IMG/VR virus record: IMGVR_UViG_3300025138_000026
Span: 1-64,000 of that record
Source of the DNA: a virus
Strand: one strand, 5' to 3'
DNA: 64,000 nucleotides
Part shown: piece by piece, positions 8,289 through 23,407 of the stretch
Layout: the number at the start of each line of letters is the position of its first letter
Position numbering within the stretch: position 1 is the first letter of the stretch
Notes under the pieces: model-generated
What the model saw: only the letters and a program-made list of their open reading frames with translations
What the model was told of the DNA's origin: nothing
Databases searched by the model: none
Program-made: the position numbers and the translations under genes

Positions 8289-8580
8289 CAAAAAATCTAT
8301 TCCCATTGTAAGCCTTGTCATCAATCCAAAAATCATATGATGGCTTATTCATACGAAGTTCTGTGTATTTTACACCCCATTCTTCAAGTTGATTTTTCGT
8401 AAGCTCAGACCAATCTTTACCAGAGTTCCCTCCTCTAGCGGTCCAATAAACTATTATATTCCCTTTCTTATGTAATTCGTTGAAATAAGAAATCCGACTA
8501 TGCATCGGTCTAGCTAATTCATAACGCCCTCTACTATCGGTACAAATTGTGCCGTCTATGTCTACAATGAATTTTTTCAT
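8272..8580 (-). CDS. Small HAD-family phosphatase
   Basis: A 102-aa protein with HAD motif I DIDGTICT near the N-terminus, motif II in YWTARGG and motifs III/IV in NKPSYDFWIDDKAYN. Such short HAD proteins are common in polysaccharide gene clusters and hydrolyse sugar phosphates. The neighbours are HldE-type enzymes, so a heptose phosphate substrate (the GmhB step) is possible. GmhB is usually nearly twice as long, so this is not an identification. The start ATG overlaps the stop of the FkbM gene by four nt (ATGA), indicating co-translation. Confidence 0.8.
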   Translation of the reverse strand: MKKFIVDIDGTICTDSRGRYELARPMHSRISYFNELHKKGNIIVYWTARGGNSGKDWSELTKNQLEEWGVKYTELRMNKPSYDFWIDDKAYNGNRFFDELYI

Positions 8581-9323
8581 GACACTATTACATTTTCTTC
8601 CGAGGGAAAATGAGTTTTTAATTTTTTGATTAACTGTTCTCTTTGCGTTTTCTCTCCATGTACTTCAATATGTACCCTTTTTATATTTTTACTAAAATCT
8701 CTATTATGTTCAAATAAATAATTAAATATGCCATACTCAGAACCCTCTACATCTACTTTTAAATAAGATATATTATTGATGTTATTTAAAACGTTTTTTA
8801 TATGAGTATTTTTAAACTCACCAATTTCTTCATGACTTTCGTCATTTAAATCTGACTCAATAAAACAAGACTCTCCTTGAGAAAGATTAGAAGAAAACTT
8901 TAAAGTAACATCCTCTGATGCTGTAACAGCTGTATTGTAAAATTTTATGTTTTGAATATTATTGATAAAACAATTTAAACGCAAGGTTTCTAAAGCGCGG
9001 ACACAAGGATCAAAAGAGTGAACCGTGCAATTTGGATATAAGGCCGCGCAAACAATTGATATTAACCCATAATTGCAACCCAAATCAATAATGTTGTTGC
9101 CATCTTCAATGTTCAAATCAAAAAAATTAAATTCATATTTACAAAGACCTGCCAGAGTACCAATGAATGTTTCATCCCCCTCTGGCAACATAACATGCAA
9201 TTGTTTTTTATACCCATCTTTGCGGGAAACTTCTAACTTACTAAGAAAAAAATGCTTATTAATTTCAAATTTAAAATTAGAATTTTGTTTCTTGAGTTTA
9301 GCCCAGTCAATTATCTCTGTCAT
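8577..9323 (-). CDS. FkbM-family SAM-dependent methyltransferase
   Basis: A 248-aa protein. The SAM-binding loop is NIIDLGCNYGLISI, followed by SFDPCVRALETLRLN, and the FkbM hallmark YLKVDVEGSEYGIF lies near residue 190. FkbM enzymes O-methylate sugars or similar groups. In this operon it could methylate a heptose-containing glycan on the virion or host surface; that is inference. It overlaps the adenylyltransferase gene by 17 nt upstream and the HAD gene by 4 nt downstream. Confidence 0.85.
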   Translation of the reverse strand: MTEIIDWAKLKKQNSNFKFEINKHFFLSKLEVSRKDGYKKQLHVMLPEGDETFIGTLAGLCKYEFNFFDLNIEDGNNIIDLGCNYGLISIVCAALYPNCTVHSFDPCVRALETLRLNCFINNIQNIKFYNTAVTASEDVTLKFSSNLSQGESCFIESDLNDESHEEIGEFKNTHIKNVLNNINNISYLKVDVEGSEYGIFNYLFEHNRDFSKNIKRVHIEVHGEKTQREQLIKKLKTHFPSEENVIVS

Positions 9324-9822
9324 TTGTCAAGTTTATTTTTTTTATTATATCTGTTGAGCTAATATTATCTACAAAGGGAATCACTTTTAAAATAGCCGAA
9401 CCCTTAGACTTCAGTTCTGACTTGTTTAAAGAGGTTTCATCATAATCACCTCCCTTACACCAAAAATCTGGCTGAAGTTCCCTTAGTTGTTTTGACACTG
9501 TTTTGGTATTAAAAATAAATACATAATCTACCGCCTCATGGCAAGCTACTGTATAAGCTCTCTGTTTAGCAGATAGAACAGGTCTACCTTCTCCCTTTAA
9601 GGATTTAACGCTAGAATCACTATTGATACCTACAACCAATTTTGAGTTTAAACTGCAGCAATTTTTCATCGCGCTCAAAAGGCTTGCGTGACCTGAATGA
9701 AATAAATCAAAACACCCATTTGTGAAAATAAAAAACTTTTTTATACCACACTTTTCTAACTCTCTTGCGAACTGCCTCTCCTTCTTGAGTTCTTCAAAGC
9801 TTAATATTTTTTTATGTCTCAT
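9307..9822 (-). CDS. hldE: HldE-type heptose 1-phosphate adenylyltransferase (stand-alone half)
   Basis: 171 aa from the ATG at 9822 (MRHKKILSFEEL), which overlaps the kinase stop by 4 nt (ATGA). The cytidylyltransferase-like nucleotide-binding signature TNGCFDLFHSGHASLL is clear, with VVGINSDSSVKSLKGEGRP and DFWCKGGDYDE following. This matches the C-terminal domain of HldE (RfaE), which makes ADP-D-glycero-beta-D-manno-heptose from heptose 1-phosphate and ATP. In most bacteria it is fused to the kinase; here the two are adjacent separate genes. The exact nucleotide and sugar are inferred from family and context. Confidence 0.85.
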   Translation of the reverse strand: MRHKKILSFEELKKERQFARELEKCGIKKFFIFTNGCFDLFHSGHASLLSAMKNCCSLNSKLVVGINSDSSVKSLKGEGRPVLSAKQRAYTVACHEAVDYVFIFNTKTVSKQLRELQPDFWCKGGDYDETSLNKSELKSKGSAILKVIPFVDNISSTDIIKKINLTNDRDN

Positions 9823-10565
9823 ATCGTAGTAACCCCCTTTTTCTTGATAACTTTTTGGCAACAATCCTGAGCTAATAGAATAGAGGTTCCTATATTTTTA
9901 GTAAGAGTATAAGAAAGAGAGAACGCAGAAAGAAATGTGTCTCCAGCCCCAGATACATCTCTAATATCAGAAGGGCTTTCAATTGGGTAGTCTCGCTCAT
10001 TATACCAACACCCCTTGGAAGCTTTAGTCACAATTAAATTGTCGCACATATACTTCCATCCATTCTCCTTGTATTCTTTTTCGTTTATTTTTATAAAAGA
10101 AAATAAACGAGCCCAATCTAGATTGCATTTTTTCTTGGTATCTAGGAAAGACAACTTAGCTCTACGACCTATTTCTTTTAATTGAACACTACTGAGAAAA
10201 CCTTTATTATAATCAGAAACAACTACTGCATCATATTCTTCTATATTATCTGGGAGATTGTAACAAAAAGGGTAAGTATCTGTATCGACCCTTAGAAACA
10301 TATGGTTTGATTGCTTATCAATATAGCGAGTCTTATGGCCTTCTGTCTCGTTAGTAACTAATTCTATTTCGTTTACAATAGGAGTTCCTTTGTGGATCTC
10401 CTTATCTACAGCCAACATATTTTTATAGACGTTATGGGCCATACCAAGATTATCATCACTGTATTCTGGAACAAATACAGGGGCAGGAGCTTCTGGACAA
10501 AGTCTTTTGGACTCCCCATAACAAAAACGATCACTACAGGTTTCCCCAATGACTAGCAATCTCAT
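9819..10565 (-). CDS. hldE: HldE-type heptose 7-phosphate kinase (PfkB family, stand-alone half)
   Basis: A 248-aa PfkB-family kinase. The start MRLLVIGETCSDRFCYGE and the C-terminal anion-hole motif DVSGAGDTFLSAF (about residue 203) match the N-terminal domain of HldE/RfaE, which phosphorylates D-glycero-D-manno-heptose 7-phosphate at O-1. It is shorter than the roughly 315-residue HldE kinase domain. It overlaps the cupin gene by four nt upstream and the adenylyltransferase by four nt downstream, so the HldE reactions are encoded as a coupled pair. The substrate is inferred. Confidence 0.83.
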   Translation of the reverse strand: MRLLVIGETCSDRFCYGESKRLCPEAPAPVFVPEYSDDNLGMAHNVYKNMLAVDKEIHKGTPIVNEIELVTNETEGHKTRYIDKQSNHMFLRVDTDTYPFCYNLPDNIEEYDAVVVSDYNKGFLSSVQLKEIGRRAKLSFLDTKKKCNLDWARLFSFIKINEKEYKENGWKYMCDNLIVTKASKGCWYNERDYPIESPSDIRDVSGAGDTFLSAFSLSYTLTKNIGTSILLAQDCCQKVIKKKGVTTI

Positions 10566-10936
10566 TTTTGAGAGTCTCCTTTCTCTACTCTGTATGAATC
10601 ATATTCGTGGTGTTCAGTACTTACCTCAAAAACACTAGCATCTTCTAAAGCAGTTAATTTGTGCGGAGTACAGGGTAGTAAATGAACAACATCTCCAGAT
10701 TCTAATTTTTTTTCTAACCGTTCTGCCTTTTTTAAATCAAAATATTCTAATTTTAATACCCCTTTAGTCACACACCAAGTCTCTTCTTTCTTGATGTGAT
10801 AGTGCATTGAAAAACTCGCCCCCTTATTAAAGCGCAAAATTTTACCGCAATATCTCTCGTTATTAATAATCCAAAGCTCATCTCCCCATCCTTTAGGGTG
10901 AACTTCAAGTCTAGAAAAAACAGGCTTAACACTCAT
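10562..10936 (-). CDS. Cupin-domain sugar-phosphate isomerase-like protein
   Basis: A 124-aa single cupin. KGWGDELWIINNERYCGKIL is followed by the metal motif H-x-H-x5-E (MHYHIKKEETW) and a later histidine in CTPHKLTALED. This resembles the cupin domain of type II mannose-6-phosphate isomerases, and similar short cupins sit next to HldE-like genes in other sugar clusters. It is the first gene of its operon. A strong sigma70-like promoter ends 7 nt before the ATG, so the transcript is predicted to be leaderless. The substrate is unknown. Confidence 0.75.
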   Translation of the reverse strand: MSVKPVFSRLEVHPKGWGDELWIINNERYCGKILRFNKGASFSMHYHIKKEETWCVTKGVLKLEYFDLKKAERLEKKLESGDVVHLLPCTPHKLTALEDASVFEVSTEHHEYDSYRVEKGDSQK

Positions 10937-10987: not shown

Positions 10988-11170
10988 TCATTTCTGCTTG
11001 GCTTTACCGATATTTAACGCAGCCCAATCAATTGCCTTGTATACCTTAGATAAAAAAGTTCCTTCACGAGGAGTGGGGGTAGCTGCAGCGAGAGCGGAAG
11101 CAAAAGCGACAAAAGCTGTAACTACGCCGAACCAAGGGTTATCTTGAAATAATTGAAGAATAGAGTCCAT
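10988..11170 (-). CDS. Small membrane protein, holin-like
   Basis: 60 aa with one hydrophobic segment (WFGVVTAFVAFASALAAA, about residues 13-30), a TPTPREGT turn and an amphipathic, lysine-ending tail (AALNIGKAKQK). Its size and one-helix layout resemble small phage holin-like proteins and the 63-aa plus-strand protein at 14616-14807. It lies between the heptose operon and the GT9/lysis group. Holin function is inferred only; a separate, better holin candidate is at 13073-13387. A near-perfect TGTAATATA/TATATTACA dyad lies just upstream. Confidence 0.6.
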   Translation of the reverse strand: MDSILQLFQDNPWFGVVTAFVAFASALAAATPTPREGTFLSKVYKAIDWAALNIGKAKQK

Positions 11171-12446: not shown

Positions 12447-13067
12447 TTAGATAATCCTAATTCTACTCCGAATACAAGAAACATGACGTTTCTTCTCCAA
12501 AACAGAACCTCCTTCTCTGCTGCCAGCTCCATTAGTATTCCCCTCAATCGTGGTAACATAACCACTGGAATCAACATCTTTAACTGCTAACCCAATATGA
12601 GAAAAAGTGAAAACAACTATATCTCCAGCTTTTATATCTTCATTTGTAGGCTTCCGCAACTCAACTCCTTTTGAGACTTGTTTCCTCGCCCAGTTTTCAA
12701 AATCCCAAGCTCCTGCTGTTTGAGGTCTTTTAAATGAAATATCTTCACCTTCAATAGCCTCCCTAACGAGCCAACAGATGAAGGCAGCGCACCAAGGCCA
12801 ACCTTTATCAGGGTCCAACCAAGTTGCAGCTTTATATACGTCAACCATTGGACCACAGTTACTACCGTCAACTTCCGATACCCCAATCTCTCCACGAGCT
12901 AAGTTAACCATTTTTTCTGAAACACTACTCCCAGAAACTTCTGTTTCGTCTGTAGATAACTTCGCCAATATAGCATTCCAAGTAACTGGGCCATCTGCTC
13001 CGTCAGCAGAAATCTCAAGTAATTTTTGAACAGTTTTAACAACTTCTTTTTTTGATTTAAAGTCCAT
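12447..13067 (-). CDS. Endolysin with peptidoglycan-binding and CHAP-like domains
   Basis: 206 aa. The N-terminus (KEVVKTVQKLLEISADGADG, then GPVTW) looks like a short PG_binding_1 repeat. Residues about 50-206 form a CHAP/NlpC-P60-type peptidase domain, with catalytic Cys93 in GWPWCAAFICW and His157 in FTFSHIGLAV, followed by an acidic/polar segment EGNTNG. It would cleave peptidoglycan cross-links at lysis. It lies 5 nt downstream of the holin candidate. No signal peptide is visible, so it depends on a holin for access to the wall. Confidence 0.85.
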   Translation of the reverse strand: MDFKSKKEVVKTVQKLLEISADGADGPVTWNAILAKLSTDETEVSGSSVSEKMVNLARGEIGVSEVDGSNCGPMVDVYKAATWLDPDKGWPWCAAFICWLVREAIEGEDISFKRPQTAGAWDFENWARKQVSKGVELRKPTNEDIKAGDIVVFTFSHIGLAVKDVDSSGYVTTIEGNTNGAGSREGGSVLEKKRHVSCIRSRIRII

Positions 13068-13072
13068 TTTAA

Positions 13073-13387
13073 TTATTTTTTAATGATTTTTTCAGGGTTT
13101 TTCGCATATTTTTTTGCTAATGCAATAAGACCATTAATGATTTCAGGACTAATTACACCAACAACCCCATAAGAAACAGCTTTAACTAAATCACTTATGG
13201 GAGCATCATGCAAAATAAACCATAAAATCATAGAGAGTATCGCTGCAGAACTAACGTTTTTTGCGAATTCCTTCCAACAGTATTCTACTTTGGAGTTTAG
13301 CATCCTAGCTATCATACCCGCAGCCCCAATTATTGGAATAACCCATCCGCCATCCATAAATTCTCTCATTAGATTTTTTAGGTCCAT
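13073..13387 (-). CDS. Holin (multi-TM, LydA-like)
   Basis: About 104 aa from the ATG at 13387 (MDLKNLMREFMDGGWVIP). Three hydrophobic stretches are visible: GGWVIPIIGAAGMIARML, AAILSMILWFIL, and AVSYGVVGVISPEIINGLIAL, with a basic tail (KKYAKNPEKIIKK). This arrangement resembles LydA/phage_holin_3-type holins, and the gene directly precedes the endolysin. The longer frame to 13480 would cross the divergent promoter region and is rejected. A TGTAA-N6-TTACA dyad abuts the start codon. Confidence 0.75.
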   Translation of the reverse strand: MDLKNLMREFMDGGWVIPIIGAAGMIARMLNSKVEYCWKEFAKNVSSAAILSMILWFILHDAPISDLVKAVSYGVVGVISPEIINGLIALAKKYAKNPEKIIKK

Positions 13388-13402
13388 GTAAATTAACTTA
13401 CA
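13387..13402. promoter_or_regulatory. TGTAA-N6-TTACA dyad in the divergent lysis/island gap
   Basis: An inverted repeat with 5-bp arms directly abuts the holin start in the short gap between divergent units (holin leftward, acidic protein rightward). GTGTAT also lies 10 nt before the plus-strand ATG at 13435. It is a candidate shared control site. Confidence 0.4.
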
Positions 13403-13434
13403 CAAAAAAAAGAAATATGTGTATGATTTATTAA

Positions 13435-14610
13435 ATGGGGGAACATCGCAAAAATCTTGCGGAAGCGGAAGCTTTCGCAAAAAAATACTGCAATCCAGAT
13501 GATAGCGAAATCATCTCTAATTTAGACCGCTATGCAAGAGAAACAGCATGGACTTTATTACAGAGAATTAAACACTTGGAACAAAAATCTTGTGTTTGTG
13601 AAGAATGTGGTAGTGAGGTGGAAGAAGAGGTTGAGGAAGAAGAAGTTAAAGTTGAAAAAAATAAAGGTCAGGAAGTGAAGGCTGAAACCACTGAGTCTTC
13701 TACTATGGATAAGTTGTCTGAGATAGCCGAGAAGAATAAGGATATTTTAGATAAAGCTGCAAAAGGTACTGTTGCTGCAGCCGCTGCTGGAGCAACAACC
13801 CAAACAGCAAGTGCCGCTACTGGTCTAAGTGCTTTTGTACAAGAGACGGTTCAAAAAGTAGGAACGATTGGAATAGCTGGCACTATGTCTATAGGTAGTG
13901 GAGCCTACTTCCAAGCCAAAACAACAAAAGAAAAAGGTACTGAGATAGCTGTTGTGGCAGAACAAGAGCACCAGATATTTTCTAATTTAAATGATTTTAC
14001 TGAGACAACAATTGGGTTTCAGCCTTTTGGTGGCGTTTCCGAGGCGATTGTAGAATATGCCGAAAAAGGTTATGGAGATGTCATTGGGACATCTGAAGAA
14101 GGTTACGAGGGGGGAGAAGAAGGAGAAGATGAAGGGTCTGTTGGCGAAGAGGGGGAAGGCGAAGCGTCTGACGAGGCCGAAGGAAATGAGGGCGAGCCTA
14201 AAGAAGAGAATAATGAAGAAACCGAAGGAGAAGCTGTTAAAGAAGAGGATTCTGTAGAAACTGAAGAAGAGGAAACAGAAGAATCCGAAGAAGAGGAAAC
14301 AGAAGAATCCGAAGAAGAGGAAACAGAAGAATCCGAAGAGGAATCTAAAGAGGAGTCTGAAGAAGAGAAAGAAGAGCAAGAAGGAGAAGAGAAAGAAGAG
14401 GAAGAAGGAGAAAAAGTGGAGGAAGAATCTGAAGAGGGTGAGCCTGAAGAAAAAGAGGAGCCTGAAGAACAGCCTGAAGAACAGTCTGAAGAGGGCGAAA
14501 AAGAAAAAACAGATATTGAGAATTCAGAAGAAACATTTGAACTAGAAGAAGATGATCAAGTCACACAAGTCCCTGATGTGATTAAACTCCCCAACATGAT
14601 AAGAAAATAG
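13435..14610 (+). CDS. Glu-rich low-complexity protein with a hydrophobic centre
   Basis: 391 aa. Residues 1-60 form a charged helical domain with a CVCEECGSEVEEE cysteine cluster. A small-residue, hydrophobic stretch (AAAAAGATTQTASAATG to IGIAGTMSIGSGAYF) around 115-165 could span or insert into a membrane. From about residue 220 the protein is extremely rich in Glu, with the 24-bp tandem repeat at 14263-14334 and runs of EEE, ending with a less acidic KLPNMIRK tail. I do not recognise a family. It is the first gene of a three-gene plus-strand island within minus-strand genes; an accessory (moron-like) role in the cell envelope is inferred. Confidence 0.75.
   Translation: MGEHRKNLAEAEAFAKKYCNPDDSEIISNLDRYARETAWTLLQRIKHLEQKSCVCEECGSEVEEEVEEEEVKVEKNKGQEVKAETTESSTMDKLSEIAEKNKDILDKAAKGTVAAAAAGATTQTASAATGLSAFVQETVQKVGTIGIAGTMSIGSGAYFQAKTTKEKGTEIAVVAEQEHQIFSNLNDFTETTIGFQPFGGVSEAIVEYAEKGYGDVIGTSEEGYEGGEEGEDEGSVGEEGEGEASDEAEGNEGEPKEENNEETEGEAVKEEDSVETEEEETEESEEEETEESEEEETEESEEESKEESEEEKEEQEGEEKEEEEGEKVEEESEEGEPEEKEEPEEQPEEQSEEGEKEKTDIENSEETFELEEDDQVTQVPDVIKLPNMIRK
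14263..14334 (+). repeat. 24-bp perfect tandem repeat x3 (EEEETEES)
   Basis: Three identical 24-bp units at 14263-14286, 14287-14310 and 14311-14334 encode EEEETEES each. Imperfect Glu-rich units continue downstream. Perfect identity at the DNA level suggests recent slippage expansion. Confidence 0.9.
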
Positions 14611-14615
14611 TTATT

Positions 14616-14807
14616 ATGGAAGATTTATTTGAAAAAATACTCGCTCCTTACATGGGGTCAATGCCTGAGTTTATTATTTCTATCTTGGGTTTATTGGGGA
14701 CGCTTTCTTACATTGTGCCTGAAAATAGTAAGCTGGGTAGGTTGTTAGGGAAGTTGACGGGGAATCTAACTAAACTCAAAAATTTTATACTGAAAAAGAA
14801 GAAATGA
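14616..14807 (+). CDS. Small membrane protein, 63 aa
   Basis: The single hydrophobic segment MPEFIISILGLLGTLSYIV (about residues 15-33) is followed by a basic amphipathic tail rich in Lys and Leu, ending KNFILKKKK. The layout resembles the 60-aa protein at 10988-11170, so the two may be distant relatives. It starts 5 nt after the acidic gene and overlaps the next gene by four nt (ATGA). The function is unknown; a holin-like or membrane-accessory role is possible. Confidence 0.65.
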   Translation: MEDLFEKILAPYMGSMPEFIISILGLLGTLSYIVPENSKLGRLLGKLTGNLTKLKNFILKKKK

Positions 14808-15634
14808 AGCGCACACTCATAACTTTACTTTCAATTATTTCTGTAGCTAAATCTGCCGTTATAATCTCTACAGGAGGTATAATACGTAAAATAGACCCAA
14901 CAGGGAACCCTACTATTAACCCTGTAATTAACCCTATAAGACCTACCTCGATTAGTAGTGAGGAAGTCGTAGACACATCTGAAAGCGAAGATAAAAAAGA
15001 AGATTCAATTATTACTTGGGATGCAGAAGAAGAGGATATTTATGATTTTTATGATGCTCCGAATTGGGACTTTTCAGAATCGGACTTGAAAGAGTTGGAT
15101 CGAGATTCTGCCATCACTAGCATACTAACCATAACAGATGCTAAAATACTTGAGGATAGCCCTTCTTACTCTAACATTGAAATTGGAAATGGGTTTTCAG
15201 TGACATTAAAATCTACGAATTTTACTTTCCAAAACAACAATGGTTTTACTGGAGTGAATGATGATGACGATGTTGTCTCTACTTTAAACATAACTGAAGG
15301 ATCGAGTATGAACGCTATGTTTTCTGCAATTGGAATGAAAATAAATGTAGATTCAACTAGTAGCTTGACGCTACGGGGAGCTGGAGACTCAATCAATAGT
15401 CAAATTGAAAGATCTATCGTTAACTTGTCTCCAAATGCTAAAATCACTTTAAATTCATTAGATCAGTTTGCAATACAAGGTGATGATATTTACTTAAATG
15501 GGGTATCTTTCTCCCAAAACCCTTCTATTTTAAAGTTTAATGGTAATACAGGCACTGCAATTCCAGAGGTCCATTTTATTTTTCTTGGTGCTATACCTAT
15601 AATTTTACTTTTAGGTAAACGCAAAACTTATTAG
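14804..15634 (+). CDS. Secreted protein with PEP-CTERM-like C-terminal sorting signal
   Basis: 276 aa. A typical signal peptide (MKRTLITLLSIISVAKSA) is followed by an acidic, Ser/Thr/Asn-rich secreted body (repeats such as NPTINPVINPIRP, then DVVSTLNITEGSS). The last 26 residues read AIPEVHFIFLGAIPIILLLG followed by KRKTY: a Pro-Glu motif, a hydrophobic helix and a basic end, the three parts of a PEP-CTERM exosortase signal, although V replaces the second P. If real, the product would be cleaved and anchored in the host envelope. It could act in surface change or superinfection exclusion; that is inference. A simple C-terminal membrane anchor is the alternative. Confidence 0.7.
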   Translation: MKRTLITLLSIISVAKSAVIISTGGIIRKIDPTGNPTINPVINPIRPTSISSEEVVDTSESEDKKEDSIITWDAEEEDIYDFYDAPNWDFSESDLKELDRDSAITSILTITDAKILEDSPSYSNIEIGNGFSVTLKSTNFTFQNNNGFTGVNDDDDVVSTLNITEGSSMNAMFSAIGMKINVDSTSSLTLRGAGDSINSQIERSIVNLSPNAKITLNSLDQFAIQGDDIYLNGVSFSQNPSILKFNGNTGTAIPEVHFIFLGAIPIILLLGKRKTY

Positions 15635-15646
15635 CCTAACTAAATA

Positions 15647-15686
15647 AATGAAAACACGATAGCTAAAAAGCTACCGTGTTTTCATT
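15647..15686. terminator. Bidirectional hairpin terminator
   Basis: An 18-bp stem with one mismatch (AATGAAAACACG... paired with ...CGTGTTTTCATT) and a 4-nt loop lies between the convergent genes ending at 15634 (+) and 15727 (-). Runs of A and T flank both arms, so it can serve both directions. Confidence 0.8.
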
Positions 15687-16540: not shown

Positions 16541-16631
16541 GGTTATTTGTTAATTCAAAGAAGAATAGTTTATTCTTTAAAGTTAAATATAACTCTACTG
16601 ACTTTAATACTGATTTAACTAGAGAGAGCAT
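16365..16631 (-). CDS. Candidate inner-membrane spanin (Rz-like), overlapping the lipoprotein gene
   Basis: 88 aa in a different frame from the lipoprotein; the two share 16365-16540. The N-terminus (LSLVKSVLKSVELYLTLKNKLFFFEL) is amphipathic rather than a clear membrane span, and the rest is a charged helix likely to form a coiled coil (NHEKKRKKIIQEIEDIRSN, then DRADLLREQLISEDKSF). The nested arrangement with a lipoprotein suggests an Rz/Rz1 pair, but the weak N-terminal helix is a caveat. The ATG overlaps the end of hldD. Confidence 0.5.
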   Translation of the reverse strand: MLSLVKSVLKSVELYLTLKNKLFFFELTNNHEKKRKKIIQEIEDIRSNDGDADRADLLREQLISEDKSFKHLSTFYSKSSERDSSSDK

Positions 16632-17457
16632 TTAAATTTTCTTCTACATAATCCTTTACACTCTTCCATTTATAATCACCAATAACTTTCAACAACTTAG
16701 AGTTATTTGCTTTAGTAAATCTCTGATATTGTCCCACAAGCTGTTTCGGCATAGGTATTTCCTTGATTTCACATGTCATGTTTGATTGTATTATCTCAGC
16801 GACATCAGTAAACGAAATAGGATTGCCAGTTCCAACATTAAATATACCCGATTCATCTTTAAGAAGCATTTCGTAATGAATCTCACAAATATCATCGACA
16901 CAAACAAAATCCCTTTTTATCCTGTCGCTTTTTTCAAATAAACTTATCTCTCCGTCTTTGTAAGCTTGCTTAATAAACTTGGACACAGGACTCGCCTGAT
17001 CTCCCTTCTTATTTTCTCCTAAGCCATAAACATTAAAATACCTAAAACCTTGGTATGGATAATCTTGATTCAATAACCAGCAATCAAACATATATTTACT
17101 AAAGGCATACGGACTTATAGGTTTACAGAAGTCATCTTCATTAAAATTCCTTCCCACTCCATAAACAGAGGCGCTGCTTGCATACTGGAACTTAATATCT
17201 ACGCTCGCACATAGCTCAAATAGTTTTTTGGAAAATTCAAAATTCTGCTTGAGAATTTTCTTTAAATTTCTCTCTGTTGTGCTGGAATTTGCCCCAAGGT
17301 GAATAACAATATCTTGGTCAAGGACATTTGGCAACCCAACATCCCCAAGGTGAATATCAAATTTTGTTACATTATATCCCCTGTGAGATAAATAGGCGGC
17401 TAAATTGCCGCCTATGAATCCACCTGCGCCAGTAATTAATACTCTATTCGCTTTCAC
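16615..17457 (-). CDS. hldD: ADP-glycero-manno-heptose 6-epimerase (HldD/RfaD)
   Basis: 280 aa from the GTG at 17457 (VKANRVLITGAGGFIGG), which overlaps the upstream gene's end. It is an extended SDR with the NAD loop GAGGFIGG. Several segments match HldD: GANSSTTERN (E. coli GACSSTTEW), YASSASVYG, YAFSK, FRYFNVYGLGENKKGDQAS, KRDFVCVDD, SGIFNVGTG and MPKQLVGQYQRFTKA. HldD converts ADP-D-glycero-D-manno-heptose to the L-glycero form. With the HldE halves at 9307-10565 this gives most of an ADP-heptose route, although the genes are 6 kb apart. The upstream ATG at 17496 is less likely because the fold begins at residue 14. Confidence 0.9.
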   Translation of the reverse strand: MKANRVLITGAGGFIGGNLAAYLSHRGYNVTKFDIHLGDVGLPNVLDQDIVIHLGANSSTTERNLKKILKQNFEFSKKLFELCASVDIKFQYASSASVYGVGRNFNEDDFCKPISPYAFSKYMFDCWLLNQDYPYQGFRYFNVYGLGENKKGDQASPVSKFIKQAYKDGEISLFEKSDRIKRDFVCVDDICEIHYEMLLKDESGIFNVGTGNPISFTDVAEIIQSNMTCEIKEIPMPKQLVGQYQRFTKANNSKLLKVIGDYKWKSVKDYVEENLNALSS

Positions 17458-17890
17458 AATTACATCTACATCCACTATCAGAATTACATTCTTCAATAAG
17501 ATTCTTGATCAGTTGCTCGCTAAAATCAGATTCTTTAATCTTAGCTAGTTCTTTATTAAGACTCTCATCTCCAGTATCGTCTTCTAGATCAGATTTACAA
17601 AAGAAATCAAAGTTATCATGCAGAGTATAATGCTGAATAACCTCTACAACTAACTCATTATTTTTAAATGACTTACTTAAAGAATAAGAAGAATACCTAT
17701 TTACAGCGTTTTTCTTATTTTCAGTTTCAATTTCAGAATTAGTCAACTCTACTTTTCCTCCCTGACTTTTATATTTTTTTAAAACCCAGATTTTTTTAGC
17801 ATATTCCGTACCCTGTTGAAACTTGATATCAGCGTCAAAAGATAAACTGCGATATAACTCATCATCTAAAAACTCAACTATATAAGGCAT
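17444..17890 (-). CDS. Hypothetical acidic protein, 148 aa
   Basis: I do not recognise this protein. It begins MPYIVEFLDDELYRSLSFDAD, has a charged middle, an acidic C-terminal third (CKSDLEDDTGDESLNKEL) and a final Cys cluster (CNSDSGCRCNCESE) that could bind metal. It overlaps hldD. The element AGGTGTAAGACACTTATA immediately precedes the ATG, so the gene probably heads a transcription unit. Confidence 0.6.
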   Translation of the reverse strand: MPYIVEFLDDELYRSLSFDADIKFQQGTEYAKKIWVLKKYKSQGGKVELTNSEIETENKKNAVNRYSSYSLSKSFKNNELVVEVIQHYTLHDNFDFFCKSDLEDDTGDESLNKELAKIKESDFSEQLIKNLIEECNSDSGCRCNCESE

Positions 17891-18528: not shown

Positions 18529-20853
18529 TTAGTGTCCACATTTTTCAACAAAAAGTTTAATGTTTTTCTCTCCAGATAAGACTCTTTCTGAAACAAATGG
18601 TGTTATTTCCGATAGGATCTTCTTGCTTAGAGCGTCTACTTTTACTTTCTCACTTTTAATTTGAGATACGATATCTTTAATATAATTAAAATTAAAAGTC
18701 AACTCTATATTATTGTCTTTTAATCTATTTTTTAATCTACTCAATTTAGACCAAAGCAATCTTCTTAGACCTTTGCTATCCAATTCTTTTAGAGAGAAGC
18801 ATTCATCTACAAGAGATAATATATCTGGGTGTATGACTAAATTGTCCTTATCTAACGTTGACTCTTGGAAACCCATAGATGATTGACTACTAGAAACAGC
18901 ACTTGTTAGGAATATTTTGCAATTTGTGAAATCAGCTATATCTCCATTACTCATTTGAAGCTGCCCATGCTTGAATATCTGATTAAATAAAGGAATGGAT
19001 ACTGGGCTAACTTTATGGAAATCATCTATAATTATCACACTATTCGGAGAAATTAAAACTTTTTCGCAAATAGATGTATTGTGTCCATCTGATGATGCTA
19101 TTTTATGAGCGGAATAAGAATCTGAAAAATGAACACCACTATAAGATAGTACATTTACTGAATTTTTATCCAAACTATCTTCAAGTAGCTCTACAAAATA
19201 AGATTTACCACTAAACCTTGACCCACTAACCACGAAACAATCTGGAGATGCGAAATTATCTGTCTTACGAATACCAAGTCCAGAAAGAATCATCTTCTCC
19301 CTTAAATTTTTAATAAATGTCTTTTGACCAATCAGGGATTCACTGATACAATCAAAAACTTTGTTTGTTATAGACCTATTATTTAGAGGATTTTTCTTGC
19401 GATCAAAGAAATCTCTTAGATGACAGAGCTTTACCTCTGGAGTTTTTTGAGAAACATCTCCTGTCCACTTCTCTAATGCACTGTTTAACTTCTCTAAAAG
19501 CTGTAGATGATCTTTTTCAGGATCTAGTGCTGCTGCCATAGCTTCTATTTGCTGATCTTTTATAGATGAATCTACCTCGTTATGGCTAACCTTTGATTGA
19601 GCACCGCAATGATCGATAATGTCAATCGCCTTATCTGGATAAAACTTATTCGGAATGTATTTCTCACAATAGTCTATAACATTATTTAAAAAACCGTCTG
19701 TATAAATAACCCCATGAAAGTCCTCATAATATGAAGTTATTGTAGGTAAGATCTCCTGCATCTGAAATTTAGATGGCTCACGAATTGAAATCCTCTCAAA
19801 CCTACGGTCAAGAGCTGAGTCTTTCTTAATCGTGTTCGTATACTCGTTAATCGTTGTGGCCCCAATACAACTAATTGTTCCGCGAGCCAACTCAGGCTTT
19901 AGTATATTTGAAGCTTCTAAGGAATTATTTGTAGCCCCTCCAGCCCCAACTAAGGTGTGAACTTCGTCAATAAATAAAACTAGATTAGTGTATTTCTTAG
20001 CTTCAGAAACAAAATCCTCTAAGCGCTTCTCAAACTGACCCCGATACTCTGTGCCAGCCACCATACTAGACAAACTAACAGAGTAAATAACTTTATTGGC
20101 TATTAGCTCTGGAGCATGTCCAGAAACTATTTTAGAAGCTAAACCCTCTACCAACGAGGTCTTACCTGTCCCAGCTGGCCCTACAAGTAATGCGTTTGGC
20201 TTTTTCTTCCTACAGAGCACTGTCGCGATCTCATCTATCTTCCCATCAAAATCAACAATAGTATCAAAATCTTCATTTAAAGCTTTTAAGTTTAAATTCT
20301 CAGCAAATTGAGATAGTATCTCGTTTTTAGAAAACATATCAATCCAATCCTCTGGAGTTTTAGCGGAAGAATCTACAAAATCACTGCCAAAATCAATATC
20401 TTTGACAATTAAAGATGATTCAGTAATAAAACCCAACACTACTTCTGCAGAAGCCTCGTCTCCTACAGGGAATAATTTTTTAATAACCTTCGGAGAATAA
20501 CCCTCTTCAAAGAAGACCATTAATATAACTTCTGGAGGTATATAGTCCAAAGAAAAACTATCCCTTGAAACTCTTTCCGCTTCTTGCAGGAGTTTTCTAA
20601 CCTCTGTTTTTAAAAATTTCTTCGTATACTTATTCTTTCTCTTTTTACTTAAAACCTTGCGAGACTCTTTTAAAAGATCTATTGGATCAACATCCACCTT
20701 CTTGAAAATAGAAGAGCAAGACTCACTTAAGTCATTGAGAAAACAGTGAAAAAACAAGTCTGTATCCGCTCCATTCCTATACAAAACATCACACAACTCT
20801 TCTGTCGTTTTGATGACACCCTCTATATGTGGGGTAAAAGGAAGATTAGTCAT
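18529..20853 (-). CDS. Clp-type AAA+ ATPase (ClpA/ClpB-like unfoldase)
   Basis: 774 aa. The N-terminus (FTPHIEGVIKTTEELCDVLYRNGADTD, about 6-32) resembles a Clp N-domain repeat. The first AAA+ module has Walker A LLVGPAGTGKTS (about 222-233), Walker B LFIDEVHTLVGAG and arginine finger DSALDRRFER (about 347). The second module has Walker A GSRFSGKS (about 544) but its Walker B reads IIIDDFHK, with D in place of the catalytic E, so it may be impaired in hydrolysis. No ClpP is seen. It lies beside the polymerase genes, and a strong Shine-Dalgarno (AAGGAGG) precedes its ATG inside the end of the polymerase gene. Remodelling of a replication or host protein is inferred. Confidence 0.85.
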   Translation of the reverse strand: MTNLPFTPHIEGVIKTTEELCDVLYRNGADTDLFFHCFLNDLSESCSSIFKKVDVDPIDLLKESRKVLSKKRKNKYTKKFLKTEVRKLLQEAERVSRDSFSLDYIPPEVILMVFFEEGYSPKVIKKLFPVGDEASAEVVLGFITESSLIVKDIDFGSDFVDSSAKTPEDWIDMFSKNEILSQFAENLNLKALNEDFDTIVDFDGKIDEIATVLCRKKKPNALLVGPAGTGKTSLVEGLASKIVSGHAPELIANKVIYSVSLSSMVAGTEYRGQFEKRLEDFVSEAKKYTNLVLFIDEVHTLVGAGGATNNSLEASNILKPELARGTISCIGATTINEYTNTIKKDSALDRRFERISIREPSKFQMQEILPTITSYYEDFHGVIYTDGFLNNVIDYCEKYIPNKFYPDKAIDIIDHCGAQSKVSHNEVDSSIKDQQIEAMAAALDPEKDHLQLLEKLNSALEKWTGDVSQKTPEVKLCHLRDFFDRKKNPLNNRSITNKVFDCISESLIGQKTFIKNLREKMILSGLGIRKTDNFASPDCFVVSGSRFSGKSYFVELLEDSLDKNSVNVLSYSGVHFSDSYSAHKIASSDGHNTSICEKVLISPNSVIIIDDFHKVSPVSIPLFNQIFKHGQLQMSNGDIADFTNCKIFLTSAVSSSQSSMGFQESTLDKDNLVIHPDILSLVDECFSLKELDSKGLRRLLWSKLSRLKNRLKDNNIELTFNFNYIKDIVSQIKSEKVKVDALSKKILSEITPFVSERVLSGEKNIKLFVEKCGH

Positions 20854-23407
20854 TTTTTACCTCCTTCAGTTTCATATATATATCCGTATTAATTGAATTG
20901 ATCTTATCCACAAAGTAAGCGTCACTACTTCTTGAACCATTTATAACAATAACTTGATTTTTGGCAATCTTTTCCCCACTTCCAAGAAAATTAGAAAGTT
21001 TCTGTTCCCTGCTATTATCCATAAATAAAAAATTCTTTGTCGCAGTGTTATCGCAAATTGTTAGTATCATATATTTATTATCATTGGATGATACTCTAAC
21101 AAAGAAATCTTTTACCTCCCCCACTACTTGAAAAGTCTCTCTTTCACTAAAAAACTCTAACTCTTTTATATCAACCAAAGAGGAAAACCTATCTATGAAG
21201 CAGTCACGTAGATTATGAGAATAACTATATCCTAGTAGGGTCGTTTCGTACCTCCAGTTTGAAAACATTTCATGCTTCCTATTCTGATTGTATATTTTCT
21301 TATAACCTGCGTATTTTTTCTCAAATGTCGTGAAACGTTTATCTTTCATTATCGGACGATTGTCATCCGCCAAGGTCTGACTCTTAACAACCTCTGATAT
21401 AGCATCTAAGATATCATAACCAAATCTTTCCCCCATCTTCACAAAGTTCCTCTTCTCTCTATCTGTTAATAGATTGAATGATTGAGCTTCCAAAACTAAG
21501 CGAGTCCTATTTGTTCCCGTATCATCCATTGTCCCAGCTTGTACAAGAGCCGCTAAAACAGAAATATTGATCCCACACTGCTTCGCTGCAAGAAAAACTT
21601 CATATTTATTATGAAATTTTTTCCCTCTGAAATCTATTAGGCTTTGTATGGATTTTAAAGAAATACCTTTAATACTATTTAATCCATACCTAATGTCTTT
21701 ACCCTCAATTTTAAAATTAAAATCGGATTTAAACAAACAAGGAGGTAGCATTTTGATACCAAAGTCTGCTAATTCTTCATTTACCCCAGATATTACTTCT
21801 AGTGGCTCTGGATCAAATTCAGAACACTCCAAGATTGAAAGGAAGAATTCCTGAGGATAAGTGTGTTTAAGATAAACTGTCTTAGCTGCTAAGTCGGCAT
21901 AAGCAAAGCTATGAGACTTGTTAAAAGAGTAATGAGACGCTGCAACCAGAGAATTCCAATAGAAGTCAGCTATTTCTTCAGTTAAACTTTTTGATTCGGC
22001 TGCATCATAAATTCTATCCTTCCACTTCGGCATTTCATCCACCTTTTTCTTTCCCACTATCCTTCTGAGAACCTCCGCTTCTTCAAGACTTAATCCAAAA
22101 ACATTGTGGGCAATTTGCATCAATTGCTCTTGATACAAGATAACATTTTTTGACCAAGATAAAATATCATCTAGCTCTGGATTTAAGTTTAATTCTGTAG
22201 GGTGGTCTTTCTGGTTCTTGTAAGAATCTACAAACTGTAGGGCTGCTGGTCTAGCAAGAGCGACAACATCTGAAAGCTCATTAATATCTACAGGTTTAAC
22301 TTTTTTACAAACTTTAAAGTTGGTCTCAGCTGAAATCTGGAACAATCCCATTGGGTGCTTGAAGTCTTGTAGTATATCGTAAATTAATTTATCATTTGGA
22401 TCAATATCCTCAAGGTCTACCTCTACTTTATCACATGTCTTGTGAGCAATAGTCAGTGTCCTTAGACCTAGAATATCAAACTTAACCATTAGATCTGCTA
22501 CGTCATTCATGTCGTATCCAGTAATTAGATCTCCGTCCTTAGTTCTTTGGAGAGGGACCATATCCTCAATTTTCTTAGAACAAATAGCAATCCCAGAGGG
22601 ATGAACCCCAGAGTTCTTAGGTAAACCCTCTACCTTCAAAGCATTTTCAAATGTTTTCTTGTGACTCTTAACCCAAGATTTAAAACTTTCCCCCTCCTCT
22701 CTCGCCTGATTCAAAGAAAAAACTTTTCCATGAATTTTAGGTATCATATCCGAAACTCTATTAGCTTCAATCTCTTTCGCTCCATCAAAGTATTTAGTGG
22801 CCTCTCTAATACAGAGCTTGGAGCTAAAAGTATTAAAGGTAAGTATTTTCGCTGTCCTGCCCTCGTGTTTCCTCTCGATATATTCTATGACCTTATGCCT
22901 TTGATCATAAGAGATATCAGAATCAACATCTGGGAGGAGGCTCCCAACAAGAAATTTATTACCCCTTTTGTCTTCAACCTTCTTTGCTCTTGATTTAGAC
23001 ACGAATCGCTCAAAAAAAAGATTATTAGGTATGGGGTCAATATTAGTAACTCCTAGCAAATATAAAACAAGAGAACCTGCAGCAGAACCTCGACCAGCAC
23101 CAGTGGGAATATCATTGTCATGGCAGAAATTAAGGACATCCCAGTTGAGTAAGATGTAATCTGTAAAATCCAAATCTACCAGAGTCTCTAACTCTTGTTG
23201 TGTTCTAGAAAAATAAACTTCTTTATTTTCGTACCGTACAATACCACGATCTTTTAATCCCTTCCTTGCAAGCTCATATAGGATCTCCTTATTCGTGCTA
23301 TCTAAATCCAGACCTAGCTCGTTTAACTTTGATTCGTTAACAACTGTTTTCGGAAGCTCAACTCCAGCTGGCTCGCAATCATCATATGGTGTGAAATCTT
23401 CAAACAT
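20846..23407 (-). CDS. dnaE: DNA polymerase III alpha (DnaE) polymerase core, PHP domain absent
   Basis: 853 aa of the C-family polymerase core. The palm/thumb motif GAGRGSAAGSLVLYLLG is at about 103-119, the catalytic acidic cluster LPDVDSDIS at 158-166 (D160, D162, D164), and DILGLRT at about 311. An LVQAGTMDD helix-hairpin-helix region and an OB-like domain complete the C-terminus. Cellular DnaE is about 1,160 aa and begins with a PHP domain; here the core begins right after the place where PHP would end, and a separate PHP gene lies two genes upstream. It replicates the phage genome. Its start overlaps the exonuclease stop (TAATG). Confidence 0.9.
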   Translation of the reverse strand: MFEDFTPYDDCEPAGVELPKTVVNESKLNELGLDLDSTNKEILYELARKGLKDRGIVRYENKEVYFSRTQQELETLVDLDFTDYILLNWDVLNFCHDNDIPTGAGRGSAAGSLVLYLLGVTNIDPIPNNLFFERFVSKSRAKKVEDKRGNKFLVGSLLPDVDSDISYDQRHKVIEYIERKHEGRTAKILTFNTFSSKLCIREATKYFDGAKEIEANRVSDMIPKIHGKVFSLNQAREEGESFKSWVKSHKKTFENALKVEGLPKNSGVHPSGIAICSKKIEDMVPLQRTKDGDLITGYDMNDVADLMVKFDILGLRTLTIAHKTCDKVEVDLEDIDPNDKLIYDILQDFKHPMGLFQISAETNFKVCKKVKPVDINELSDVVALARPAALQFVDSYKNQKDHPTELNLNPELDDILSWSKNVILYQEQLMQIAHNVFGLSLEEAEVLRRIVGKKKVDEMPKWKDRIYDAAESKSLTEEIADFYWNSLVAASHYSFNKSHSFAYADLAAKTVYLKHTYPQEFFLSILECSEFDPEPLEVISGVNEELADFGIKMLPPCLFKSDFNFKIEGKDIRYGLNSIKGISLKSIQSLIDFRGKKFHNKYEVFLAAKQCGINISVLAALVQAGTMDDTGTNRTRLVLEAQSFNLLTDREKRNFVKMGERFGYDILDAISEVVKSQTLADDNRPIMKDKRFTTFEKKYAGYKKIYNQNRKHEMFSNWRYETTLLGYSYSHNLRDCFIDRFSSLVDIKELEFFSERETFQVVGEVKDFFVRVSSNDNKYMILTICDNTATKNFLFMDNSREQKLSNFLGSGEKIAKNQVIVINGSRSSDAYFVDKINSINTDIYMKLKEVKND

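Follow-up and report, generated by a model that had tools for sequence, protein, structure and literature searches.

The genome of an uncultured marine phage encodes an exported protein, P0001, whose C-terminal tail is by descent a PEP-CTERM sorting tail, as judged from sequence comparisons. The encoding gene resides in a stretch of 64,000 nucleotides, hereafter called the window, that corresponds to positions 1 to 64,000 of IMG/VR virus record IMGVR_UViG_3300025138_000026, a contig of 79,643 bp that carries phage genes for terminase-like and tape-measure proteins, ribonucleotide reductase, a recombinase, and DNA polymerase III. This origin of the tail is supported by a bacterial homolog of the protein, by phage relatives that retain the residues IPEP, and by purifying selection on IPE. 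By strict criteria, namely a PEP motif and a score above a model cut-off, P0001 is not a member of the PEP-CTERM class. Because its tail nevertheless shares descent with PEP-CTERM tails, we call the protein a PEP-CTERM-derived variant.

Architecture of the exported protein

A sequence-only reading of the window had described a signal peptide, a body rich in Ser, Thr, and Asn, and a tail composed of IPE followed by hydrophobic and basic segments, and the 276-aa ORF fits this description exactly. The same reading noted V in place of P as the third motif residue, and this was confirmed in the tail, which reads TGTAIPEVHFIFLGAIPIILLLGKRKTY and can be divided into TAIPE, then V, then HFIFLGAIPIILLLGKRKTY. 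The features of the protein, in window coordinates, are as follows.

14804..15634, + strand: P0001, phage PEP-CTERM-derived exported protein, 276 aa (ORF and translation); 38 distinct family sequences in viral contigs
14804..14857, + strand: predicted signal peptide MKRTLITLLSIISVAKSA; hydrophobic window at residues 4-23, cut likely near AKS/A, no lipobox Cys
14858..15553, + strand: exported body; a variable acidic N-terminal part, then a likely beta-solenoid domain (about residues 105-250)
15554..15568, + strand: invariant T-A-I-P-E motif (residues 251-255) that starts the sorting-type tail; pN 0.000, pS 0.486; collinear with bacterial TATAIPEP
15569..15571, + strand: third motif position; V256 in P0001, A/S/I/V/P/T/M/F in relatives; pN/pS 0.8
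15572..15613, + strand: hydrophobic tail helix, residues 257-270; helix at 258-275 in the structure model, Kyte-Doolittle maximum 2.64
15614..15631, + strand: basic C-terminal end GKRKTY; KKRA, RRRR, KKRRL, and similar in relatives

Hydropathy analysis identifies hydrophobic segments at residues 4-23 and at about 252-273 only and, together with an alignment of the N-termini of the family, indicates an N-terminal signal peptide and no membrane helix besides that of the tail. Inspection of the sequence found no Cys anywhere in P0001, and hence no lipobox. Ser, Thr, and Asn together make up 31% of the body, compared to a mean of 19% and a maximum of 29% for 49 other CDS of the phage. Lys and Arg account for 6.0% of the body, which is below the value for every one of these other CDS (mean 12.4%).

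This organization resembles that of proteins handled by the PEP-CTERM/exosortase system (EpsH; PF07589, TIGR02595, PF09721; Haft et al. 2006, PMC1569441), in which a signal peptide leads the protein to the inner membrane, a C-terminal helix anchors it there, and a Cys/Arg/His exosortase recognizes the motif at the outer face. The shared features include the signal peptide, the scarcity of basic residues in the body that is typical of PEP-CTERM proteins (PMC1569441), a PE motif, a helix of about 15 residues, and a basic end at the very C-terminus. In addition, a homologous tail occurs in a bacterium that carries an exosortase. P0001 differs from the known system in being encoded by a phage, within a three-gene operon rather than as a single gene, and its tail reaches no curated model. 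Moreover, the third motif residue is not Pro in 35 of the 38 family sequences.

The structure model of P0001 is a low-confidence right-handed beta-helix. When the model was compared to known structures with VIA-align, the matches were right-handed beta-helices, including pertactin (Z 9.6) and antigen 43 (Z 8.3). A Foldseek search with the model returned nothing at an E value of 0.001 or better, and a PDB sequence search with the protein gave no meaningful match. Given the low quality of the model (mean pLDDT 54), we conclude from it only that the predicted fold of the body is likely a beta-solenoid.

A bacterial homolog with a canonical tail

An initial scan of bacterial genomes with patterns, which were too strict, detected no homolog. 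A profile built from 24 phage sequences succeeded when later searched in 387 Verrucomicrobiota genomes. The body matched a secreted sialate-esterase-like protein of genome G476 (E = 6.3e-12, phage residues 160-252), with 39% identity over 93 aa (BLASTP). With a joint profile, the same domain was recognized in two sulfatases from the class of G476 (genomes G687 and G664), with E values down to 1.3e-23.

The joint profile also recovered a stand-alone copy of the domain, encoded where a G687 contig begins, with the C-terminus NGVSFADDTSILTFSGNTATAIPEPATLGLIGMFGGGLFVIRRKLMM. Its tail, ...FSGNTATAIPEPATLGLIGMFGGGLFVIRRKLMM, is collinear with the phage sequence ...FNGNTGTAIPEVHFIFLGAIPIILLLGKRKTY, and no gap interrupts the alignment across the junction between domain and tail. 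This bacterial tail scores 20.9 bits with PF07589 and 20.6 bits with TIGR02595, and thus lies above both curated cut-offs (20.7 and 16 bits, respectively). This collinear homolog with a canonical tail shows that the P0001 tail and true PEP-CTERM tails descend from a common source. In the other bacterial copies the domain forms the N-terminal part of an exported enzyme, whereas the phage protein consists only of the domain and the tail. These enzyme-fused copies continue after the domain with unrelated sequence (TATAVGTPPP, TATATTNG, and TAIAGTYEG). Since the tailless copies end the domain with TATAVGT, TATATTN, and TAIAGTY and have no PE, the Pro-Glu pair must be part of the tail and not of the domain.

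The phage profile also gave weak matches to the tail regions of Verrucomicrobiota proteins. Several of these are PEP-CTERM ends (AIPEPSTLAF..., AIPEPSVPLL..., AIPEPGSFFV..., VPEARVVFLGAIGVLLLLRRRRG, and VPEAGSMILSALGFIFILRRRRL), and VPEA variants occur among them. By 16S comparison, the three genomes with homologs fall into a single deep group, which stands at about 82% from the loci of named Opitutales and Verrucomicrobiales. We take this group to belong probably to the Kiritimatiellales/Pontiellaceae, judging from the 16S distance and the sulfatases.

Conservation of Ile-Pro-Glu in the phage family

Scans of viral contigs yielded 38 distinct family sequences, all of them in uncultured virus contigs of IMG/VR. 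At the sensitivity used, no family member was found in 50,697 phage records, and the major capsid protein has no relative among isolated phages. A three-part tail test, which calls for a PE motif, a hydrophobic stretch, and a basic end, is passed by 36 of the 38 family members and by 24 of 28 bacterial PEP-CTERM tails. In comparison, just one of 2,292 other ORF ends from these phage contigs and one of 10,000 shuffled tails pass.

Among full-length members of the family, TAIPE has undergone no amino-acid change (pN 0.000 versus pS 0.486). The pN/pS ratio is 0.80 for the residue after IPE, 0.37 for the tail helix, 0.60 for the basic end, and 0.12-0.27 for the body. These contrasts indicate that selection holds Ile-Pro-Glu exactly, but the remainder of the tail only in kind. 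The residue that follows IPE in the 38 sequences is A in 14, S and I in 6 each, V in 5, P in 3, T in 2, and M and F in 1 each. P0001 has Pro-Glu-Val rather than the Pro-Glu-Pro that is nearly invariant in PEP-CTERM tails, and IPEP is retained in three relatives (L237/L255, L234/L269, and L249). Separately, the same tails are found on diverged bodies (e.g., L003 and L020), a pattern suggestive of recombination between these phages at the IPE junction.

Sorting tails with a third residue other than Pro are also known from PEF-CTERM and PEFG-CTERM, as well as from VPEID-CTERM and VPDSG-CTERM. Each of these has its own fixed motif, whereas the third position of the phage tail is free.

Scores with PEP-CTERM models

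The sequence-only reading had proposed that the last 30 residues be searched against PEP-CTERM HMMs. When P0001, its isolated tail, and 24 relatives were compared to Pfam, NCBIfam, and PHROGs, no PEP-CTERM model matched the P0001 tail. The reading's proposal of a PEP-CTERM-like signal gained support from the bacterial canonical tail, the IPEP relatives, and selection on IPE, but not from HMMs.

Relatives with IPEP score higher. L237 reaches 14.7 bits with PF07589, and L249 reaches 20.0 bits with PF07589 and 13.2 bits with TIGR02595, all under the cut-offs. The NCBIfam exosortase-dependent XDP1 model matches a tail fragment of L249 (E = 6.7e-6) and full-length L237 (E = 4.1e-4), and TIGR03024 and TIGR04296 each touch one family member weakly (E 0.45 and 2.4). 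We also constructed our own PEP-CTERM model from 27 Verrucomicrobiota tails. With this model the IPEP members outrank almost all phage ORF ends, and the tail of P0001 stays in the noise, so tail similarity alone could not decide its identity. A profile-profile comparison aligned phage and canonical tails in register but weakly (P = 0.014).

Exosortases and candidate hosts

Exosortase (PF09721) is encoded in all three genomes with a homolog (G687, G476, and G664), in 7 of the 7 searched genomes with either a homolog or a similar tail, and in 37 of 52 sampled Opitutales genomes. Our own model search of the phage contigs found no exosortase. Host assignment, for which the sequence-only reading had suggested CRISPR spacers, was attempted in the 387 Verrucomicrobiota genomes by a 20-kb DNA comparison, which gave no clear spacer or prophage match, and by a terminase-based search, which found no relative. 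The GC content of the phage is 36%, versus 54-62% at the bacterial loci that carry homologs.

A conserved three-gene operon

The P0001-type gene is always the last of a three-gene operon, following genes for a Glu-rich protein and for a 63-aa membrane protein. The operon and its surroundings comprise the following features.

12447..13067, - strand: neighboring CHAP endolysin (Pfam CHAP 1.8e-8; PHROG endolysin 8.6e-15)
13073..13480, - strand: neighboring small holin-like membrane protein, divergent to the operon (PHROG holin E 0.046, weak)
13435..14610, + strand: 391-aa Glu-rich protein, operon gene 1; 42-89% identity over long matches
14616..14807, + strand: 63-aa single-helix membrane protein with a basic tail; the end of its ORF and the PEP gene start overlap (ATGA)
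15647..15686, no strand assigned: hairpin with an 18-bp stem, a possible terminator after the operon (scored on the - strand)

Every locus of sufficient length has the same gene order. Because this order holds where outer neighbors differ, we consider the operon, and not the flanking lysis genes, to be the unit. In almost every locus compared, the gene for the highly conserved 63-aa protein (67-100% identity) starts 188 nt before the PEP gene.

Several other observations concern this part of the window. The Glu-rich protein combines a Cys-x-x-Cys pair with an acidic tail of low complexity, and is kept with the PEP gene in relatives. The 63-aa protein resembles another single-helix protein of about 60 aa (10988-11170, - strand) in its helix, Pro-containing turn, and basic amphipathic end, and the two may be distant, holin-like paralogs. 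Sugar genes are located at 8577-10936 and 16615-17496 (- strand), one of them heptose-epimerase-like (TIGR02197, E 2e-65). By eye, the set also includes a sugar kinase and cytidylyltransferase-like, cupin, and methyltransferase-like proteins, and the phage may synthesize or modify ADP-heptose. An 853-aa protein of the DNA polymerase III alpha type (20846-23407, - strand) adjoins a Clp-like ATPase (18529-20853).

Proposed function and alternative explanations

We consider it probable that P0001 is a surface protein that was taken from Verrucomicrobiota-like bacteria and that is still sorted by a host exosortase via a relaxed signal. The protein would be exported by the Sec pathway, would adopt a beta-solenoid fold once outside the cytoplasm, and would remain tethered to the inner membrane through its C-terminal helix. 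A host exosortase would then recognize Ile-Pro-Glu in the tail and cut off the helix, after which the body could be passed to the cell surface or to exopolysaccharide. Relative to the classical signal, the phage version would keep I-P-E and leave the third residue free, perhaps because I-P-E is all that the cognate exosortase reads. Ala at this position is not unusual, as VPEA tails in exosortase-bearing Verrucomicrobiota show. The likely use would be an altered surface of the infected cell, for instance for the exclusion of other phages, and a surface beta-solenoid could mask receptors.

The main uncertainty is whether the tail, although derived from PEP-CTERM, now functions as a mere membrane anchor because exosortases do not act on it without the second Pro. 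The protein would then stay on the periplasmic side of the inner membrane, anchored there, where together with the 63-aa protein it perhaps blocks the entry of DNA from other phages. Such a role would agree with the failure of HMMs to match the tail, the widespread loss of the second Pro, and the strict pairing of the gene with that of a small membrane protein. A simple anchor, however, leaves unexplained a fully conserved I-P-E beside a free residue and a variable helix. Furthermore, tails with Ala at the third position (VPEA) are present in exosortase-bearing Verrucomicrobiota, and the one in G440 scores 26.1 bits with PF07589. We regard the anchor explanation, the main rival, as rather unlikely. 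Alternatively, P0001 might be a decoy, an abundant and poor substrate that occupies the host exosortase and leaves host surface proteins unsorted during infection. Retention of IPE with relaxation of the rest might be seen in a substrate that is bound but poorly processed. Strong constraint on the body (pN/pS 0.12 to 0.27) exceeds the needs of a decoy tail, and among the explanations weighed here this one seems to us the least probable.

Only marginally more credible is a role in lysis. One-piece phage spanins, such as T1 gp11, are exported, beta-rich proteins with a C-terminal helix that are encoded near lysis genes. P0001 could similarly bridge the periplasm between both membranes, given that endolysin and holin-like genes adjoin the operon and that the predicted periplasmic body is beta-rich and followed by a C-terminal helix. 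However, P0001 is much longer than these spanins, and it has no lipoprotein signal and no Cys for attachment to the outer membrane. Transcription of the operon is directed away from the lysis genes, and other genes flank it in other contigs. Its body shares homology with a domain that occurs in sulfatases and an esterase exported by bacteria, rather than with spanins. On the basis of the missing lipobox, we rejected the spanin assignment.

Canonical PEP-CTERM tails in other viral contigs

If the signal of P0001 works as proposed for host-exosortase sorting, the phage borrows a bacterial surface-sorting machine. Its family would then constitute a natural experiment on the motif residues, in which P and E are kept and the second P is free. 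It would also offer a route to the roles of exosortase-sorted proteins, such as phage exclusion, and would point to Verrucomicrobiota-like hosts for this uncultured marine phage group.

In the papers searched, there was no published phage-encoded PEP-CTERM protein, and none was detected among the 50,697 phage records at the sensitivity used. A scan of IMG/VR for canonical tails identified 49 further contigs that encode PEP-CTERM-tailed proteins, and the 25 examined are unrelated to the P0001 family. Some of these contigs may be prophage flanks. In the examples checked, the canonical-tail gene immediately precedes a phage DNA polymerase gene (L270) or lies near HNH endonuclease genes (L300 and L310) or a homing endonuclease gene (L283). 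This setting suggests that phages may generally make use of the sorting system. It is conceivable, at somewhat less than even chances, that phages of exosortase-bearing bacteria widely sort their own proteins via the host PEP-CTERM machine, and that the marine group does so with a minimal I-P-E for which the second Pro is dispensable. Examples that combine a signal peptide with a canonical tail include L270 (4509-5114), L283, L285, L288, L290, L300, L308, L310, and L311, among others.
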